Source of the DNA: Candidatus Methanogranum gryphiswaldense
GTDB lineage: Archaea > Thermoplasmatota > Thermoplasmata > Methanomassiliicoccales > Methanomethylophilaceae
Assembly: GCA_019262145.1 (NCBI GenBank)
Contig: CP076745.1
Location: forward strand, 741,093 to 805,092
DNA length: 64,000 nucleotides
Direction of reading: 5' to 3'
The translations under genes were made by a program, and so were the position numbers. A model generated the notes under the pieces. That model worked only from the letters and a program-made list of their open reading frames with translations. It was not told the DNA's origin and searched no databases. The number at the start of each line of letters is the position of its first letter. Within the stretch, counting starts at the first letter, position 1. Positions 2,385-11,256 of this stretch are shown here, piece by piece.

Positions 2385-2637
2385 GATACCACTCGATTAC
2401 GTCAAGGATAATCGCTGGTATGAATTCGTCAGATTATAAATCATATTGTTAAAAAAGCAATTCGAATACATGCGCTATCAGAATAATTTTTTTTTGTGTT
2501 TTGCTATAGATAAGGGAATACGCGAATTCACACTATTTCTGTATCTGTTATAAATTTTATTTTTTTAGAGAGTTATGTTAGATTATTAGAATTGTTAAAC
2601 CCGGCAGATTAAAGTGTTTATTAAAATATTATTTGGT

Positions 2638-3456
2638 ATGAAAGAAATCCAAAGAGTTCCATATTCAACGGAGGAAGATATTCTTGTGGTGGAACTCTAT
2701 TCGAGGACGCCATATGCAAAGATTCACAGCGATAATCCTGAAATTATAGATCTTGCTAGATTTCTGACGGACAATGGACATCCGCGCACCCCTACTGCAA
2801 TTAGATTCAAAATGGAAAATCTGAAATCTGTGGATGAGAAATATCTGGATAATGGCAGGAGAAAGGGAATGTCCAATATCTCCTCTCAGCTGAGTGATGT
2901 GTGGAAAAGATTCCATGACAGCGGATTTTCCGATATAGATTCTGAGGCTGACAAGGCCAGGAAAATCATTCAGGAAGGCCTCATATCAGATAACAATGAA
3001 AAGTCGTATTTGTCATATGACATTTCAATTGACGGTCGCATTGTAGAACGTATTGCAAAGGTAAGAGTGAATCAGCCTCTTTTCAGAAGCAGGGTAATGG
3101 CCGCATATAATGGCAGATGCTGTGTAACTGGGTTGGATGTGCCGATTTTTCTTCAGGCATGCCATATAAAACCCTGGAAAGATTGCGAAGGGGATCTCAG
3201 CTCGCAACGTATGGATGTAAGGAACGGGCTTTGTCTGAATGTGTTGTATCACATTGCATTCGATGAGGGTTATATGGGTATCGACGAGGATAGGGCAGTC
3301 ATGTATTCGCCGAGATTCAAAGAATATTATGATAAGGATTTCATATCCAGAGTTTTCACGCCGTTTGAAGGAAAGAAAATTGATATAAATGTTAGGATAC
3401 CGGCAGGCGAGTTTTACCTCGATTACCATCGTAAAAATGTTTTCATGGATTCATGA
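2638..3456 (+). CDS. HNH endonuclease family protein (restriction-type)
   Basis: The protein has about 272 residues. The N-terminal part (WT-like start, YSTEEDILVVELYSRTPYAKIH) matches a helical domain often found before HNH_2 nuclease domains in restriction-type proteins. The C-terminal HNH core has CCVTGLDVP, then QACHIKPW, then MDVRNGLCLNVLYHIAFDEG, supplying the paired His/Asn/His residues. The second histidine region reads LYHIAFD rather than the usual LHD.AFD, so the active site is slightly unusual. I prefer ATG 2638 because homologues begin near this point; an upstream GTG at 2614 would add eight residues. A TATA-like box lies near 2548-2559. DNA cleavage as part of restriction or defence is likely from the family. 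Confidence 0.75.
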   Translation: MKEIQRVPYSTEEDILVVELYSRTPYAKIHSDNPEIIDLARFLTDNGHPRTPTAIRFKMENLKSVDEKYLDNGRRKGMSNISSQLSDVWKRFHDSGFSDIDSEADKARKIIQEGLISDNNEKSYLSYDISIDGRIVERIAKVRVNQPLFRSRVMAAYNGRCCVTGLDVPIFLQACHIKPWKDCEGDLSSQRMDVRNGLCLNVLYHIAFDEGYMGIDEDRAVMYSPRFKEYYDKDFISRVFTPFEGKKIDINVRIPAGEFYLDYHRKNVFMDS

Positions 3457-4719: not shown

Positions 4720-4851
4720 TGATGTATTGTTTTGATTCTTTTTTAAATATAATCATTTTTGATTTTTATTTTAGAGTATGCAGGTTTTATCAATTTATTG
4801 TTGTTTTATGTTATTAATTATATATATTGATAAATGGTAACATAGTTGAGT
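4720..4851. promoter_or_regulatory. divergent promoter region between DUF2130 and PHP-ATPase genes
   Basis: This 130-base AT-rich gap separates two divergent genes. On the minus side a TTTAAATATAAT-type box lies near 4740-4752. On the plus side TTAATTATATATATTG near 4814-4829 is placed 25-30 bases before ATG 4852. Both starts would be leaderless or nearly so, which is common in Thermoplasmatota. Confidence 0.45.
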
Positions 4852-7161
4852 ATGGCAAATTCAGAGGATAATAAAACTGCAAAGATAATAAAATTTGATT
4901 TACATATTCATTCTTATAAGAGCATATATAAAGAAGCTCCAAATGTGGTTGATAATTCAACAAAAGAAAATCTTAGAATTTTATTTGATAAATTAAATGA
5001 AAATGAAGTATCTTTATTTTCAATAACAGATCACAATCGTTTTGATGCCGAGTTATATGAAGAGATTGAAAGAATAATTAAACTTAATGAATACCCTAAT
5101 GTAAAGAATATTTTAGCAGGAATTGAATTTGATGTTAAGTTAGAAGAAGATATGAAAGATTGTCATATAATTTGCATATTTAATGCAAAAAATTCTATTG
5201 CTGCGTATCTTCATATTGAAAAATGTATCAATGAAAAACCATTAATGAAAAAAGACGAGTTTTATTTAAAAAAAGATTTTGAGAATTTATTAGAGAATAT
5301 TGGAATGGATACAATATTAATTGCATCTCAAAGAAAAGACATTTCTAATCATAATGGAAAAAATGCATCATTAAGCGATTCTACATTAAATGTGGAAGAT
5401 GTTATAAAAATCGGTTATATTGATGCATTAGAATTTCAAAAACCAAATGTGGAAGGAATTTTAAATAGTAATCTCAAAGATCTACCACATAATATTTTGT
5501 TAATTTCTGGGAGCGATTGTCATGATTGGAGATATTATCCTAATCATGATGGAATAAATGGAAATCCCAATTTTCATCATTCTAAATCAAAAATGATGCC
5601 CACATTCAAGGGGCTTTTAATGACTATAAGTTCTCCAGAGCTTAGATTGAATAGTATTGAAAATAGTAATATTTCATATATTCGTAGTATAGAAATAGGA
5701 AATAAAACCATAGAGTTGGTGAATGGTGTTAACGCAATAATTGGTGAAAATGGTTCAGGTAAGTCTACTTTATTGCAACAGATTAGTGGAAAGGAATCAA
5801 AGAAAGATTACATAGTAAAGATAGTAAAAGAGAACAATATAAAGAGCATCAAAGAAGGAAACCCTATATTGAAATTTATTTCGCAGGGTGAGATAATAAT
5901 TAATTTTAATAAGGGTAGTTTATTTGACACGAATTGCTATCCCGATATCGACACTTCTGAATTTACTGATTTGTATAGTAAATATTCAAGAGAATTAAAG
6001 CAGTATATTGAATATTCAATTAATAATGAAAAAGTATTAAGTGAGTTGTATAAGAATGAAATAAAATTTGAAAAATATAATTTGGATAAGACACATTACA
6101 TTCAGATAGATTCTGAAATGAAACCAATTGAGAATAATCACGGATCTAAATTAAAGATCATAGATGGATTGATCACTACTATTGAATCTTTATTAGGCGA
6201 TGTATACTTTAGTGAGGATTTTCAAAAATTGAATGATATTTTAAATAATTTATCGGAAATTAAAGATAAAATTAAAATTAAAAATGATGCGATAGAGATA
6301 AAAATAAAAGTTCAATCAATTGTCACAAGCTGTAGTATTGATTATATGTTAAAAGTATATCCTTTATCAACATCAAAAGATAAAGATATCACAAATTATG
6401 AATGTAAAAAATCAAATTTTATTTTTAAAATAGTTGAAGCGTTAAAAAGTAAAAATAAAATAGTGTCTTGGCCGGAATTACCAAAAAAAGTGAATGGTAC
6501 CAGTTCAAAAACAGTTAAAGGATTCCAATTTAACGTAGAGGCAAACTATGATAAAAAGGACATGGGAAAAGGATTTTATTCAAAAATGTTTGTAAAAAAA
6601 TATCAAAATGAAGAATCGTTAAAAAAAATAAATACATTAGAGGAATTTTCTGAGGCAGTAATGATCTGCACAGATGTTTCAAATATTGATGATTGCTGGA
6701 ATGCTAATTTTCAAAAATTTATTGAGGAATCAACCAACTTTATTCGATATATAAAAGATGAGGGGTCTAGTTCAGGTATAGGAAATACGCTTGGAGAAAT
6801 GTCTTTGGCATACTACAAATATTTTACACAAGATAATAAAAGTTGGGATGTCATACTAATTGATCAACCAGAAGATAATATATCCAACAATAATATAAGT
6901 TTAAAGTTAATTAATTATTTTCAAAGTTTAAGGAATAAAAAACAATTGATATTTGTAACACACAGTCCTTTGATGGTCGTAAATATGGATGTCGATAATG
7001 TTGTTTTTCTCAAAAAGATTAATGGTACCATAACAGCAGTAAATGGTTGTTTGGAATATGAAGATAACGATGTAAATATTCTTGGCATCATTGCGGAAAA
7101 CATGGATGGTGGAAGAGAAACGATAGAAAAAAGGTTGCGTGTTTATGGAAAAAAATATTAA
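4852..7161 (+). CDS. PHP phosphoesterase fused to SMC/AAA-like ATPase
   Basis: The 769-residue protein joins two enzymes. The N-terminal PHP domain (about 12-260) shows DLHIHS (H18, H20), ITDHN (D60, H61), GIEFDV, CHIICIF and SGSDCHDW, a complete set of PHP metal ligands. The second half is an SMC/ABC-type ATPase with Walker A GENGSGKST (about 298-306), signature LGEMSL (about 647), Walker B DVILIDQPED (about 666-675) and a THSP switch histidine (about 703). The long middle is the helical insert of such ATPases. This layout resembles TrlF-type PHP-ATPases. I chose ATG 4852 over TTG 4846. A 60-base sample is 27% GC, well below the later window, suggesting transfer. A nucleic-acid-directed defence role is inferred. 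Confidence 0.8.
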   Translation: MANSEDNKTAKIIKFDLHIHSYKSIYKEAPNVVDNSTKENLRILFDKLNENEVSLFSITDHNRFDAELYEEIERIIKLNEYPNVKNILAGIEFDVKLEEDMKDCHIICIFNAKNSIAAYLHIEKCINEKPLMKKDEFYLKKDFENLLENIGMDTILIASQRKDISNHNGKNASLSDSTLNVEDVIKIGYIDALEFQKPNVEGILNSNLKDLPHNILLISGSDCHDWRYYPNHDGINGNPNFHHSKSKMMPTFKGLLMTISSPELRLNSIENSNISYIRSIEIGNKTIELVNGVNAIIGENGSGKSTLLQQISGKESKKDYIVKIVKENNIKSIKEGNPILKFISQGEIIINFNKGSLFDTNCYPDIDTSEFTDLYSKYSRELKQYIEYSINNEKVLSELYKNEIKFEKYNLDKTHYIQIDSEMKPIENNHGSKLKIIDGLITTIESLLGDVYFSEDFQKLNDILNNLSEIKDKIKIKNDAIEIKIKVQSIVTSCSIDYMLKVYPLSTSKDKDITNYECKKSNFIFKIVEALKSKNKIVSWPELPKKVNGTSSKTVKGFQFNVEANYDKKDMGKGFYSKMFVKKYQNEESLKKINTLEEFSEAVMICTDVSNIDDCWNANFQKFIEESTNFIRYIKDEGSSSGIGNTLGEMSLAYYKYFTQDNKSWDVILIDQPEDNISNNNISLKLINYFQSLRNKKQLIFVTHSPLMVVNMDVDNVVFLKKINGTITAVNGCLEYEDNDVNILGIIAENMDGGRETIEKRLRVYGKKY

Positions 7162-7602: not shown

Positions 7603-7745
7603 TTATATTGGATAGCACTGTATCTTTCTTTTTTTGTCTGTTATTATGGGCTTGAACACTTTGATTCTATAGATCCCCGTGAGGAGGTAGAGATTACCGA
7701 TGAACTTCTCTATTTTCGAGATGTTTTGATATGATACATCTTCAT
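7603..7745 (-). pseudogene. 3' fragment of an unidentified gene
   Basis: On the minus strand a short open frame encodes a coherent peptide containing NEDVSYQNISKIEKF and GNLYLLTGIYRIKVF, ending at TAA 7603-7605. It has no start codon and joins directly to the decayed zinc-peptidase remnant at 7742. It reads like the C-terminal end of a helical protein, but I cannot name the family. The whole 7412-8121 stretch contains no intact gene apart from a doubtful 28-codon ORF at 7472-7558. Confidence 0.35.
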
Positions 7746-7912
7746 TGCATCGAGCGGTTCCCGATTTTCCTTGTCGCAAGTTTCTTCGACCATTTTATGT
7801 AGATGTCATCCGTATTTTCGGTCAGTTCCATATCGGTAAGTCTGTTCATCGAATCCTCAAAGTAATGAACTTTGCGTTCAATCTGTCGTATCCTAAGTTG
7901 TTTTCAATTTTT
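7742..7912 (-). pseudogene. decayed copy of the SprT/YgjP-like zinc-peptidase gene
   Basis: The minus strand translates to segments aligning with the intact gene at 9845-10525: KIENNLGYDRLNAKF against GRIGNDFGYDRTTAEF, and EDSMNRLTDMELTENTDD against QDSMDRLSDIGLTENTDD, continuing to IYIKWSKKLATRKI. The segments lie in different frames, about 90 internal codons are missing, and the HExxH C-terminal half is absent. This is a duplicate that has lost its catalytic part. It keeps its position beside the same RNA-like element as the intact copy. Confidence 0.75.
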
Positions 7913-8048
7913 ATGAATTTCAGAAGGAATTTTACCTTCGGATTGAAACTGTGAGGAAGTGGGCTTACGTGACTTTTTCAAACAAATAGGAAAAGGAATT
8001 GCATGTTCTACGAAGGATAAGTAGAATGGTAAAGCCCAAAAACTCATA
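7911..8048 (+). ncRNA. structured RNA-like element, copy B
   Basis: This element aligns with copy A at 10536-10681 over its whole length. The conserved core is GGAAGTGGGCTTACGTGACT followed by a hairpin CTTTTTC/GGAAAAG. Copy B closes with TATGAATTT/AAAACTCATA and TTTTACC/GGTAAAG, and has a variable hairpin TTCTAC/GTAGAA. The same helices exist in copy A with different bases. Wobble pairs fit plus-strand transcription. It ends 74 bases before the Vsr-like gene and lies divergent from the decayed peptidase. No known RNA family comes to mind. Confidence 0.5.
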
Positions 8049-8121
8049 TTAAGATGAATCTAGGATCGATCTCTTAATAATGTAAAAAGAAATAAAACAC
8101 TATTCACGTATACTGTTACAA

Positions 8122-8550
8122 ATGTCTGAGGATGTATCGATTGAAAACGATTTTGAAGAAATGTATTATTCTTCAAAGAAGCATAGACTTAGTCATGCAT
8201 ACGTTTTATCTTCGAAACTTTCTAAAATCTATTCAGGTTATAAGAAAGATATTGACGATCTTCCAGGTTGTCCAGACATTGTATATTTAAAACAAAAGAT
8301 TGCCGTATATTGTGTTTCCGACCTTTGGCATTGCAGAGATGTAGAAAGGGTCACACGCGATACAAGATATTATGCCGATTTCTGGTTAGAAATGATAGCC
8401 AGATCCATTAGAATGGATTTAGAAATCGATAAAGAAATGAATGAACTCGGTTATACTGTAGTACGTGTCTGGAATTCTGATATTGATGAGAATCCAGATG
8501 AGGTTGCAGAATATATTAAAAAAATCGTGGATGAACAAAAAGTGAAATGA
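8122..8550 (+). CDS. Vsr-like (very-short-patch-repair fold) endonuclease
   Basis: The 142-residue protein matches the Vsr core: LPGCPDIVYLKQKIAVY (the Asp of PDIV is the catalytic metal ligand), WHC in place of the usual WHG, and a C-terminal NELGYTVVRVWNSDI matching the family's L..GW.V.RIWE. Vsr enzymes nick T:G mismatches beside Dcm methylases. No cytosine methylase gene is present here, so repair of methylation damage is unlikely. The stop codon TGA directly abuts the ATG of the next gene, a Shedu nuclease, so the two are probably one translational unit with a role in DNA restriction. The partnership is inference from position. Confidence 0.75.
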   Translation: MSEDVSIENDFEEMYYSSKKHRLSHAYVLSSKLSKIYSGYKKDIDDLPGCPDIVYLKQKIAVYCVSDLWHCRDVERVTRDTRYYADFWLEMIARSIRMDLEIDKEMNELGYTVVRVWNSDIDENPDEVAEYIKKIVDEQKVK

Positions 8551-9780
8551 ATGATAAATGAAAATTATTTAGAATACACTAACGATGAGGTTCTATTCCA
8601 TTATCTATATGGAGAAAATACAGATTGGATCTACAATAGATTTCAATATTTGGATGGTCAAACTGGAAAAGATGAGCAGCCACATGTTATTCTCAATAAT
8701 GGGTTGTTCGAATTCAAACAATCGGATCTGAAAGAGATAGGTGAGTTTGAAGCAATTTTCAAAGTAGGATATTTTGATGGAAATTATTATAAATTTAATG
8801 AAGAGGCTATAAGAACGAAATTTCCATTGAAGATTCGCAAGGGTTTCGAATTATATCTAGATGATTTTCAATTAATGAAAGGAACTCCTGTGATCAGAGT
8901 ACTTGATAATATCCTTAAAAGTGAGATCATAATTGGAGATGGAGAAGGGGAGATATCATTAGATACTTTAAAAGAAGCAAAACAAAAGTATCCAGATAAA
9001 AAAGAGATCAACATTTACATAAGGTCTAGGGTTGCAAGGGTAATATCTGATGAATTGGATATAAAAACCGATTATGATAAGAAATTAATGGAATATGTAA
9101 GTAAAAAAACAAGAGGCCTAAAGGAATCTGAATCTAGTAGATCACTACTGAATGAACTGGAGATCGAGAGGCTCACATACACACGTGATAAATTAAAAGA
9201 TATGCTGAAAAATAGGCATTCTTATAATGAGTTAACTTGGCAATTGGAAATTTTAAGGTTATTTCGTGTGATTTATCCACAATATGTTCGTATAATCAAG
9301 GGTGTTAATCTTCCTGCCGTAAACAGACATAAAAAAATTGTAGATTTTCTTATAGTGAACAGTTTAGGATATGTCGATGTCATAGAAGTTAAAATCCCAG
9401 ATAAAAAAGTGATTTTGAAGAGTCAAAGATACAGGAATAATGCCATACCTTCGAAAGAATTATCTAATTCTGTAATTCAAATAGAGAATTATCTGTATTC
9501 CTTGAGTAGTTGGGGTAAAAAAGGTGAAGAGACACTCACAGCGCTTTATAAGGATGAACTTCCAGATGGTATGCAATTAAGGATTTCCAATCCGAGAGGC
9601 CTATTGATAATTGGTATGTTGGAGGATTTGGATGAAGATGAGTTATTTGGATTTGAGTTGACAAGGAGGCATTATTCGCACATTATAGACATAATGACCT
9701 ATGATGATATGATAAAACGTATAGACACGTTGATTGAAGCTCTTGGTACGGATGGAGACATAATAATTGATAAGAAGTAA
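8551..9780 (+). CDS. sduA: Shedu-type anti-phage nuclease (SduA, DUF4263)
   Basis: The 409-residue protein has a C-terminal Shedu/DUF4263 domain (about 225-395). Characteristic stretches are LTWQLEILRLFRVIYPQY, the nuclease core VDFLIVN...VDVIEVKIP with D265, E279 and K281 as the PD-(D/E)XK residues, NSVIQIENYLYSL, and NPRGLLIIGMLED. The N-terminal 200 residues are not recognisable; N-terminal regions vary widely in this family. Shedu is a known single-gene phage-defence nuclease. Here it starts immediately after the stop of a Vsr-like nuclease gene with no gap. A hairpin terminator follows at 9820-9840. Confidence 0.82.
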   Translation: MINENYLEYTNDEVLFHYLYGENTDWIYNRFQYLDGQTGKDEQPHVILNNGLFEFKQSDLKEIGEFEAIFKVGYFDGNYYKFNEEAIRTKFPLKIRKGFELYLDDFQLMKGTPVIRVLDNILKSEIIIGDGEGEISLDTLKEAKQKYPDKKEINIYIRSRVARVISDELDIKTDYDKKLMEYVSKKTRGLKESESSRSLLNELEIERLTYTRDKLKDMLKNRHSYNELTWQLEILRLFRVIYPQYVRIIKGVNLPAVNRHKKIVDFLIVNSLGYVDVIEVKIPDKKVILKSQRYRNNAIPSKELSNSVIQIENYLYSLSSWGKKGEETLTALYKDELPDGMQLRISNPRGLLIIGMLEDLDEDELFGFELTRRHYSHIIDIMTYDDMIKRIDTLIEALGTDGDIIIDKK

Positions 9781-9819
9781 TGGATTGGATTTTTTCCATT
9801 TTTTATTAAATTAAAGTTT

Positions 9820-9840
9820 AGAGAGGCTCACGGCCTCTCT
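9820..9840. terminator. hairpin between convergent genes
   Basis: AGAGAGGC and GCCTCTCT form an eight-base stem with a short loop between the ends of the convergent Shedu and zinc-peptidase genes. T-rich sequence lies on both sides, so it could serve both strands. Confidence 0.55.
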
Positions 9841-9844
9841 TTGT

Positions 9845-10525
9845 TTAATGGTAGAAACACATCTTTTCAATCCATTTCTCGGCTTCTTCTTTCTTTTCGA
9901 ATTTAGAATTTAGTTCTTCGTATCTCGAGGTGTGCTTCTCGCTGGTGGGATCGAATCCTACAATCACATGGCATAATTCATGGTACAGGCAGTAATCTAT
10001 CACGTAATCAGGTACCATCTCGCTGTCGAGATGTTTCGATATCGATATCACCTTCATCAGTACAGAGCTGTTCCTGATTTTCCTCGCCACAGGCTCCTTC
10101 GACCAGCTTATGTAGACGTCATCCGTATTCTCTGTCAGTCCTATATCGGAAAGTCTGTCCATTGAATCCTGGAGGTCCCTGAAGTCGCCTTTGGCATTCC
10201 TCAGGATGTTTCTGCTCCTCTTCAAGTATATCGGTCTCTTGATCTGCGAGAATTCAGGTCTTGTAACCCAATCGCACATCTCTTTTGAATATCCCTGATC
10301 GTATGTTCCTCCGAGTTTCGAGAACAGTGTTCTCACGAGGTCCTCGATGACTTCATCCGGAGCATCGTTGAGATAATCCGATACTTTGAACTCAGTCCAC
10401 TTGTAGCTTCTCTGCCATCTGACTTTGAAGTCCTTGAAGGCCATGAATTCTGCGGTAGTCCTATCGTATCCGAAGTCGTTTCCTATTCTTCCGAATATCT
10501 CGTTCATTCTTTCATCTGTTGTCAT
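9845..10525 (-). CDS. SprT/YgjP-like zinc metallopeptidase
   Basis: The 226-residue protein has YHELCHVIVGFDPTSEKH, an HExxH zinc motif at H182-E183-H186 near the C-terminus with a downstream glutamate (EELN) as likely third ligand. This fits SprT/YgjP-type (DUF45) peptidases. The N-terminal two thirds contains a conserved SDYLNDAPDEVIE segment also found in the paralogue at 16580-17269, so the organism has at least two intact copies. A third, decayed copy lies at 7742-7912. The structured element of copy A lies just upstream on the opposite strand. SprT proteins process DNA-protein crosslinks; whether that applies here is unknown. Confidence 0.75.
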   Translation of the reverse strand: MTTDERMNEIFGRIGNDFGYDRTTAEFMAFKDFKVRWQRSYKWTEFKVSDYLNDAPDEVIEDLVRTLFSKLGGTYDQGYSKEMCDWVTRPEFSQIKRPIYLKRSRNILRNAKGDFRDLQDSMDRLSDIGLTENTDDVYISWSKEPVARKIRNSSVLMKVISISKHLDSEMVPDYVIDYCLYHELCHVIVGFDPTSEKHTSRYEELNSKFEKKEEAEKWIEKMCFYH

Positions 10526-10535
10526 ATTTCTTTAC

Positions 10536-10681
10536 AACTCCTTTTTTCAGAAGGGGCTTTACCCATGAACGGGAGCTGCAAGGAAGCGGGCTTACGTTAC
10601 TTTTTCAAGACAGAGAGGAAAAGGAACGATATGCCCCGCGGACGATGCGGGAGCGAAGGGTAAAGCACCGAAAAAGGAGTT
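10536..10681 (+). ncRNA. structured RNA-like element, copy A
   Basis: A 146-base element is closed by ACTCCTTTTTTC at 5' and GAAAAAGGAGT at 3', then GCTTTACCC/GGGTAAAGC. Inside are CCC/GGG, the conserved hairpin CTTTTTC/GGAAAAG, and CCCGC/GCGGG. Copy B at 7911-8048 keeps the same helices with different bases, which indicates selection for structure. The U-G wobble in CTTTTTC/GGAAAAG would be C-A on the other strand, so I favour plus-strand transcription. It begins 11 bases before the peptidase gene start, on the opposite strand, and ends 77 bases before the next plus-strand gene. Function is unknown. Confidence 0.55.
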
Positions 10682-10702: not shown

Positions 10703-10720
10703 AGTTATATTTACTGTAGT
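10703..10720 (+). promoter_or_regulatory. shared upstream motif, copy 1
   Basis: AGTTATATTTACTGTAGT matches 16 of 18 bases with AGTTATACTAACTGTAGT at 11001-11018. Each copy sits about 38-55 bases before the start of one of two paralogous small genes, so a common operator or promoter element is likely. Confidence 0.4.
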
Positions 10721-10758
10721 CCCTTTCTTTAATTTTCATTTTCAATATTTATCTGATA

Positions 10759-10961
10759 TGCAGTCAGATGATGCATTCAAAAAGAAGAAGAAAGCAACGA
10801 TGGAACAAGATACGTACGACATACTGTTCGCGGTAAGGGATCTCCTGTTATTGGCAGACAGCATGATCGACAGAATCCACGGCAAAAGGTCCGAGGAGGT
10901 CGAAAGGGTGTTCCGCTGTGCGGAGGGGGAGCTTTACAGTTTCATCGATCGGACCGAATGA
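10759..10961 (+). CDS. small hypothetical protein, paralogue 1 of a tandem pair
   Basis: ATG 10759 follows an AT-rich TATA-like stretch (CAATATTTATC) and gives about 66 residues; ATG 10801 is an alternative start. The C-terminal part, YDILFAVRDLLLLADSMIDR, aligns with YEILFALRDLLMSTRDVVRE in the next gene. The product is predicted to be helical and soluble, with an N-terminal lysine run. I recognise no family. The structured element of copy A and the shared motif lie directly upstream. Confidence 0.5.
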
Positions 10962-10998: not shown

Positions 10999-11027
10999 GG
11001 AGTTATACTAACTGTAGTAGTAACTCC
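10999..11027 (+). promoter_or_regulatory. shared upstream motif copy 2 inside an inverted repeat
   Basis: The arms GGAGTTA (10999-11005) and TAACTCC (11021-11027) enclose a smaller ACTA/TAGT repeat. The 18-base motif shared with 10703-10720 lies within. A TATA-like CCTTATAAAAC follows at about 11025-11035, so the repeat could be an operator upstream of the box. Confidence 0.45.
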
Positions 11028-11055
11028 TTATAAAACGGGCGATCGTCCTTTGTTC

Positions 11056-11256
11056 ATGGACGATGATTATTCGGAAAGGGGCCACGCGCAAACAATTTAT
11101 GAATGTCAGTACGAAATCCTGTTCGCATTGCGCGATCTGCTGATGAGCACGAGAGATGTGGTCAGAGAAAGGTATGGAAGCGAGCCTGAGAATCTGGAGA
11201 GATCGCTGACGACTGTTGACAGGGAGGTTCAGTTGTTGATATGTAGATCGCACTGA
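11056..11256 (+). CDS. small hypothetical protein, paralogue 2 of a tandem pair
   Basis: ATG 11056 is placed about 25 bases after the TATA-like box at 11027-11033 and gives 66 residues. Longer frames from upstream would run through the promoter and are unlikely. The segment YEILFALRDLLMS aligns with the preceding gene product, showing tandem duplication. The protein is acidic at its N-terminus and helical throughout. No known domain is visible. Confidence 0.5.
   Translation: MDDDYSERGHAQTIYECQYEILFALRDLLMSTRDVVRERYGSEPENLERSLTTVDREVQLLICRSH

Follow-up and report, generated by a model that had tools for sequence, protein, structure and literature searches.

The window analysed here, a stretch of 64,000 nucleotides from Candidatus Methanogranum gryphiswaldense, contains two copies of an element of about 150 nt, at 7911-8048 and 10536-10681, exactly where the original prediction had placed them. 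An archaeal replication factor C large subunit marks the host as an archaeon. The strand drawn there is called + throughout, and the sense of the SprT-like gene beside the element is minus. Between the copies lie two plus-strand genes, encoding a Vsr/DUF559-like endonuclease (8122-8550) and the Shedu nuclease SduA (8551-9780), and a minus-strand gene (9845-10525) for a SprT-like protein of 226 aa, which retains its HELCH motif and starts 11 nt from copy 2. This last gene had been overlooked in the original prediction, which had pointed to a plus-strand gene about 75 bases past each copy; such genes are indeed found, at 74-80 nt, and the DNA matching this position is unrelated and variable at other copies of the element. 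Copy 1 starts at a decayed second SprT-like gene (7706-7894, minus strand), a relic with a deleted start region and one stop codon (83% DNA identity over 106 nt). A third SprT-like gene elsewhere in the same genome, 56% identical, has no element. To the left of the pair are genes for an HNH restriction-type nuclease (2614-3456) and for an AAA ATPase protein that weakly matches several defence ATPases (4846-7161). Two tandem small plus-strand ORFs at 10758-10961 and 11058-11256 have a motif in common (YDILFAVRDLL and YEILFALRDLL, respectively), and an apparent relic of the first lies beside a copy in genome G012.

Structure of the two window copies

Copy 2 is an intact element on the + strand, which scores 97.8 bits (E 6e-20) with covariance model R3. 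Its outermost helix, P1, pairs AACTCCTTTTT at 10536-10546 with 10671-10681, and the outer edge of the latter arm, 10681, is the equivalent of the recurrent homology junction described below; the complement of the Shine-Dalgarno (SD) sequence GGAG of the SprT-like gene, at 10538-10541, falls inside the P1 5' arm. P2 pairs GCTTTACCC (10556-10564) with 10658-10666. Further inwards follow the P3 5' arm GCGGGC with the core UUACG (10586-10596), a region of P3/P4 covariation, then P5, formed by CTTTTTC/GGAAAAG around a variable loop (10600-10623), and finally the core CGAUA(UG) with its bulged A and the P3 3' arm CCCGC (10627-10639), which is near-invariant in the family. On the + strand, both window copies are much more stably folded than their dinucleotide shuffles (z = -6.7 and -5.0).

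The helices originally proposed for the two copies could be confirmed, among them ACTCCTTTTT/AAAAAGGAGT against TATGAATTT/AAACTCATA, with 8/9 positions paired, CTTTACCC/GGGTAAAG against TTTTACC/GGTAAAG, and the hairpin CTTTTTC/GGAAAAG. The pattern of the proposed shared core, GGAAGYGGGCTTACGTNACTTTTTC, has exactly two matches in the window, compared to none expected in shuffles. The core as the family defines it, however, is kept only in copy 2, as copy 1 (7911-8048, +) reads TTGCATG where the family has CGATATG, TTGCA thus replacing the near-invariant CGATA. Its outer helices still pair, using different bases, but by the family standard copy 1 counts as degenerate because the most conserved inner motif is lost, and taken alone it may be a non-functional relic. 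The last proposed helix, CCCGC/GCGGG against TTCTAC/GTAGAA, is present in both window copies, but CCCGC/GCGGG lies outside the family consensus, in which the CCCGC arm pairs with the upstream GCGGGC (10586-10591) instead of the downstream GCGGG. We have therefore rejected it as a family helix; it is weak or absent elsewhere, and P3 takes its place. A small protein encoded within the element (frame EGALPMNGSC...GLRYFFK) was also considered and dismissed, since the frames vary among homologues.

A covarying family found in one archaeal family

A covariance-model search of related genomes had been proposed as a check of the original prediction. Model R1, based on both window copies plus two relatives in G012, retrieved four copies in another genus, and R2 and R3, built stepwise from these, then found many more. 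The resulting list comprises 53 copies, distributed over 27 genomes and 7 genera, including a few weak scorers (e.g. L165, L157, G010 and G085), all within the archaeal family to which the window itself belongs, with up to seven copies per genome. Some are decayed, such as window copy 1 and copies in G012 and G153. When 147 genomes of the order were searched with stricter filters, no element turned up outside the family. In viral contigs, an exact-pattern scan yielded 42 matches to a 15-base core, which were taken collectively to be chance hits, and protein scans for the SprT-like protein and the recombinase gave no match.

The consensus is a single long imperfect hairpin, composed of P1, P2, P3, P4, P5 and a variable loop, in which P3 is GCGGGC/GYCCCGC or a variant thereof and P4 is UACG/CGAUA with a bulged A, the near-invariant inner motif of the family being UUACG/CGAUA with this bulge. 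Over 44 aligned rows, the seven helices comprise 35 pairs, with 89% pairing. Covariation among further homologues, likewise proposed as a check, is extensive: 31/35 pairs change on both sides, with 362 double-changed cells as against 115 in shuffles, and the covariation score is 0.578 versus 0.193 in shuffles, dropping to about 0.1 when the partner is shifted by one base, all on an alignment that was fitted to the model and is hence biased towards its pairing. By eye, this pairing can also be made out in copies whose arms differ completely, such as CTTTCTCTCC/GGAGAGAAAG and TTCCATTTCC/GGAAATGGAA. No Rfam 15 family reaches its gathering threshold on the element, in agreement with the earlier view that no RNA family matches, and a tRNA-Ser is the only match in the window. 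The element is thus structured, is under strong selection for pairing and lies outside all Rfam families; this part of the original prediction stands.

Element and ORF form one module with a sharp outer edge

In 41/53 copies, an ORF of at least 55 aa starts between -8 and +20 nt from the element (median distance 2 nt), a loose criterion that random points on the same loci reach in 32% of cases. These ORFs diverge from the element, being located on the minus strand relative to its + strand, and 35 of the 41 have an SD-like motif in or beside P1. Most encode SprT-like proteins; the others are short and end in (D/E)DGNY (DDDGNY ORFs), except for one unrelated protein of 121 aa. The SprT-like and DDDGNY families are unrelated to each other, yet they keep the same spacing to the element. 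The HExxH zinc motif has been lost in 17/18 full-length element-linked SprT-like proteins, the window protein being the one that keeps it, and is retained in five element-free SprT proteins, which suggests that the linked paralogues form a pseudoprotease family. A PADLOC search with the SprT-like protein gave no match. Upstream of element-free SprT-like genes (L004, L020-L048) lies a motif common to them, TAACTGTA, with a T-rich TATA-like box after it, and those of one genus also carry a short hairpin (CATACGAT..ATCGT) immediately preceding the SD; ACTGTA motifs similar to the upstream motif occur in the window near 10712 and at 11000-11035.

Similarity between related copies spans the element and the ORF and ends at the outer edge of P1, its exact onset falling within 1-8 nt of this edge. 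Among 52 pairs with an element identity of at least 0.84, which are not independent since several have a member in common, identity is 0.81 over the 70 nt towards the ORF, compared to 0.42 over the outer 70 nt, with one exception; the shuffled background is 0.36 (sd 0.18). The outer stop remains sharp even at 95-98% element identity, as in L180_5229 and L158_14628, where the element is 0.98, the ORF side 1.00 and the outer side 0.46 identical. In G023, three elements lie within 4.6 kb; two share 96-97% identity, yet their outer flanks are unrelated. At the other end, SprT modules cease to be similar close to the stop codon, behind which 18/20 have a small GC hairpin. As similarity halts at the P1 edge and near the stop codon, what is conserved as a unit is the element together with the ORF, with no conserved promoter, and gene order points to the minus-strand ORF, which makes up one conserved module with the element. 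Between window copy 2 and its G012 counterpart, similarity reaches further out, so that, judged by their flanks, the two look like the same ancient insertion. When an empty site was sought with the flanks of one G073 module, relatives matched only the module and a nearby repeat. A dispersed repeat of about 200 bp lies beside one module (L168:4799-5002) and is found again in several genomes and at the ends of contigs.

Strand asymmetry

The + strand, i.e. the complement of the ORF, folds better in 40/45 copies, with a mean difference of -6.6 kcal/mol; in random windows, the purine-rich strand gives -2.1 (sd 7.1). Wobble pairs had originally been taken to indicate plus-strand transcription. On the model-fitted alignment they do lean this way (84 G-U versus 47 A-C pairs), but a strand-neutral fold shows no preference (52 versus 56), and as the two counts disagree, we have given up calling the strand from them. 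On +, the element has its 5' end either 2-11 nt from where the minus-strand gene starts or within that start, so that a plus-strand promoter would have no space. TATA-like scores on the minus strand were no better than in shuffles and thus cannot serve as proof of a leader; upstream matches on the plus strand are weaker.

Islands, recombinases and cargo

In several genomes, two or three elements that share one orientation are spaced 1-10 kb from each other. Such arrays flank restriction and defence genes, in the window the Vsr-like and Shedu genes. Among the island cargo are also type I and III restriction systems, identified by their sequence, as well as a C5 methylase and AlbA_2 ATPases. In 13 loci, related tyrosine recombinases are encoded on the outer side of the element, on its + strand and hence divergent from the module ORF, at a distance of 1-14 kb with other genes in between; PF00589 was found in the three that were tested. 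The strongest whole-genome matches on element-bearing contigs, read by hand, have the same orientation. This recombinase family is also present in genomes without a detected element, and the window has no close match to it. A conserved protein of about 150 aa, beginning with MGDRI and lacking a Pfam match, is encoded after the DDDGNY ORF in several islands, at L179:8641-9090 and, as relatives, in L149, L150, L153, L154 and L155.

Discussion

The reading we prefer, if tentatively, is that the defence-rich islands of these archaea contain mobile gene modules and that the element is their structured end, acting as a recombination hairpin or cassette end. One DNA strand, probably the ORF complement, would fold into the hairpin; the linked tyrosine recombinase would recognise this stem by its fold and its conserved bulged core, and at the base of the hairpin it would join modules and cargo, such as restriction systems, Shedu, Vsr and AlbA_2 ATPases, in a manner resembling the use of attC by integron integrases. 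Any copy transcribed together with its ORF would also supply the 5' leader of the mRNA. Such a hairpin would explain the sharp outer edge, the arrays, the recombinases and the strand bias, and the covariation and the occurrence of all 53 copies in one family also speak for it. On the other side stand the absence of attC boxes, the 5' position, the intervening genes and the failure to find an empty site, as well as the recombinase family in element-free genomes and the window without a close recombinase match. Moreover, the same two ORF families nearly always follow the element, which looks like regulation.

A cis-regulatory leader on the minus strand is a close second and a serious contender. 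Here the hairpin would be the 5' UTR of the SprT-like or DDDGNY mRNA, with P1 covering the SD, and a ligand, a protein (perhaps the SprT-like protein itself) or temperature would open or close the helix and thus control translation. Its fixed place at the start codon, constant in the 5' UTR of particular gene families, is what a leader explains: the 41 linked ORFs, 35 of them with an SD-like motif, belong to two unrelated families with identical spacing, and with the hairpin past the stop codon in 18/20 cases the SprT unit resembles a whole transcript. However, the promoter side is unrelated even between copies that are 95-98% identical, TATA-like scores do not exceed those of shuffles, the pairing asymmetry leans to the other strand, and one SprT subgroup has its SD at the P1 edge or beyond. 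This same asymmetry, with the lower + energy in 40/45 copies, the excess of G-U over A-C pairs on the fitted alignment and the conserved purine-rich loops and bulged A on +, is what recommends a free plus-strand non-coding RNA, as originally proposed, which might be antisense to the site where translation of the minus-strand gene begins. We consider this improbable, as its promoter would have to reside inside two unrelated ORF families, upstream TATA-like matches are weaker and the strand-neutral counts are balanced. A hitchhiking relic without function, for example old transposon terminal repeats beside SprT-like genes, would fit the decayed copies in the window, G012 and G153, but is most unlikely, and for the family as a whole it is already refuted by the covariation in 31/35 pairs (44 rows) and the near-invariant core.

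Taking the recombination hairpin further, it is conceivable, if rather doubtful, that we are looking at an undescribed integron-like cassette system of one archaeal family, which shuffles defence genes via a tyrosine recombinase and whose folded single-strand site would sit at the module 5' end, beside SprT-like proteins that mostly lack the zinc motif. A recombination hairpin would provide a handle on the assembly of restriction and defence islands in these archaea. To our knowledge, the element is outside any described defence system, even though Shedu, Vsr and restriction cargo, as in known defence islands, lies between or beside elements in the window, G073, G017 and G023. Few cis-regulatory RNAs are known from archaea; a leader would be a new class of them, controlling apparent pseudoproteases. 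Either reading leaves a new covarying family of about 50 members with usable covariance models.

With translational riboswitches and mRNA leaders the element has in common its fixed position at the start codon and an SD in or beside the closing helix, and the CCCGC arm of window copy 2 could pair alternatively in a riboswitch-like manner; it differs in matching no Rfam class, in its unconserved promoter side and in its opposite strand asymmetry. Like the tRNA and tmRNA integration sites of tyrosine recombinases, it is a structured edge that forms a recurrent junction with foreign DNA, but it is neither a tRNA nor a tmRNA and is repeated within one island. Integrons, archaeal ones included (PMC9668308), with their attC sites and gene cassettes, are among the closest known systems. 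Like the element, attC sites are long imperfect hairpins, conserved more in structure than in sequence, whose ORF-complement strand folds better (40/45 for the element, with no bias in strand-neutral counts); integron cassettes, too, are compact units of ORF and hairpin with sharp edges, in arrays of one orientation, from which the tyrosine recombinase diverges. In contrast, the attC boxes RYYYAAC/GTTRRRY at the two ends of one strand were found in 0/51 copies, single boxes occurring at shuffle level, so that we have rejected the element as a canonical attC. Furthermore, the integron hairpin is located at the ORF 3' end and the element at the 5' end, its conserved core sits mid-stem, other genes separate the recombinase from the first element, and few ORF families recur. 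Since the boxes are missing and the polarity is mirrored, the element would seem attC-like in behaviour without being a member of attC, and if it is a recombination hairpin, it would mean that tyrosine recombinases have arrived independently, for a second time, at recognising a site by its structure.
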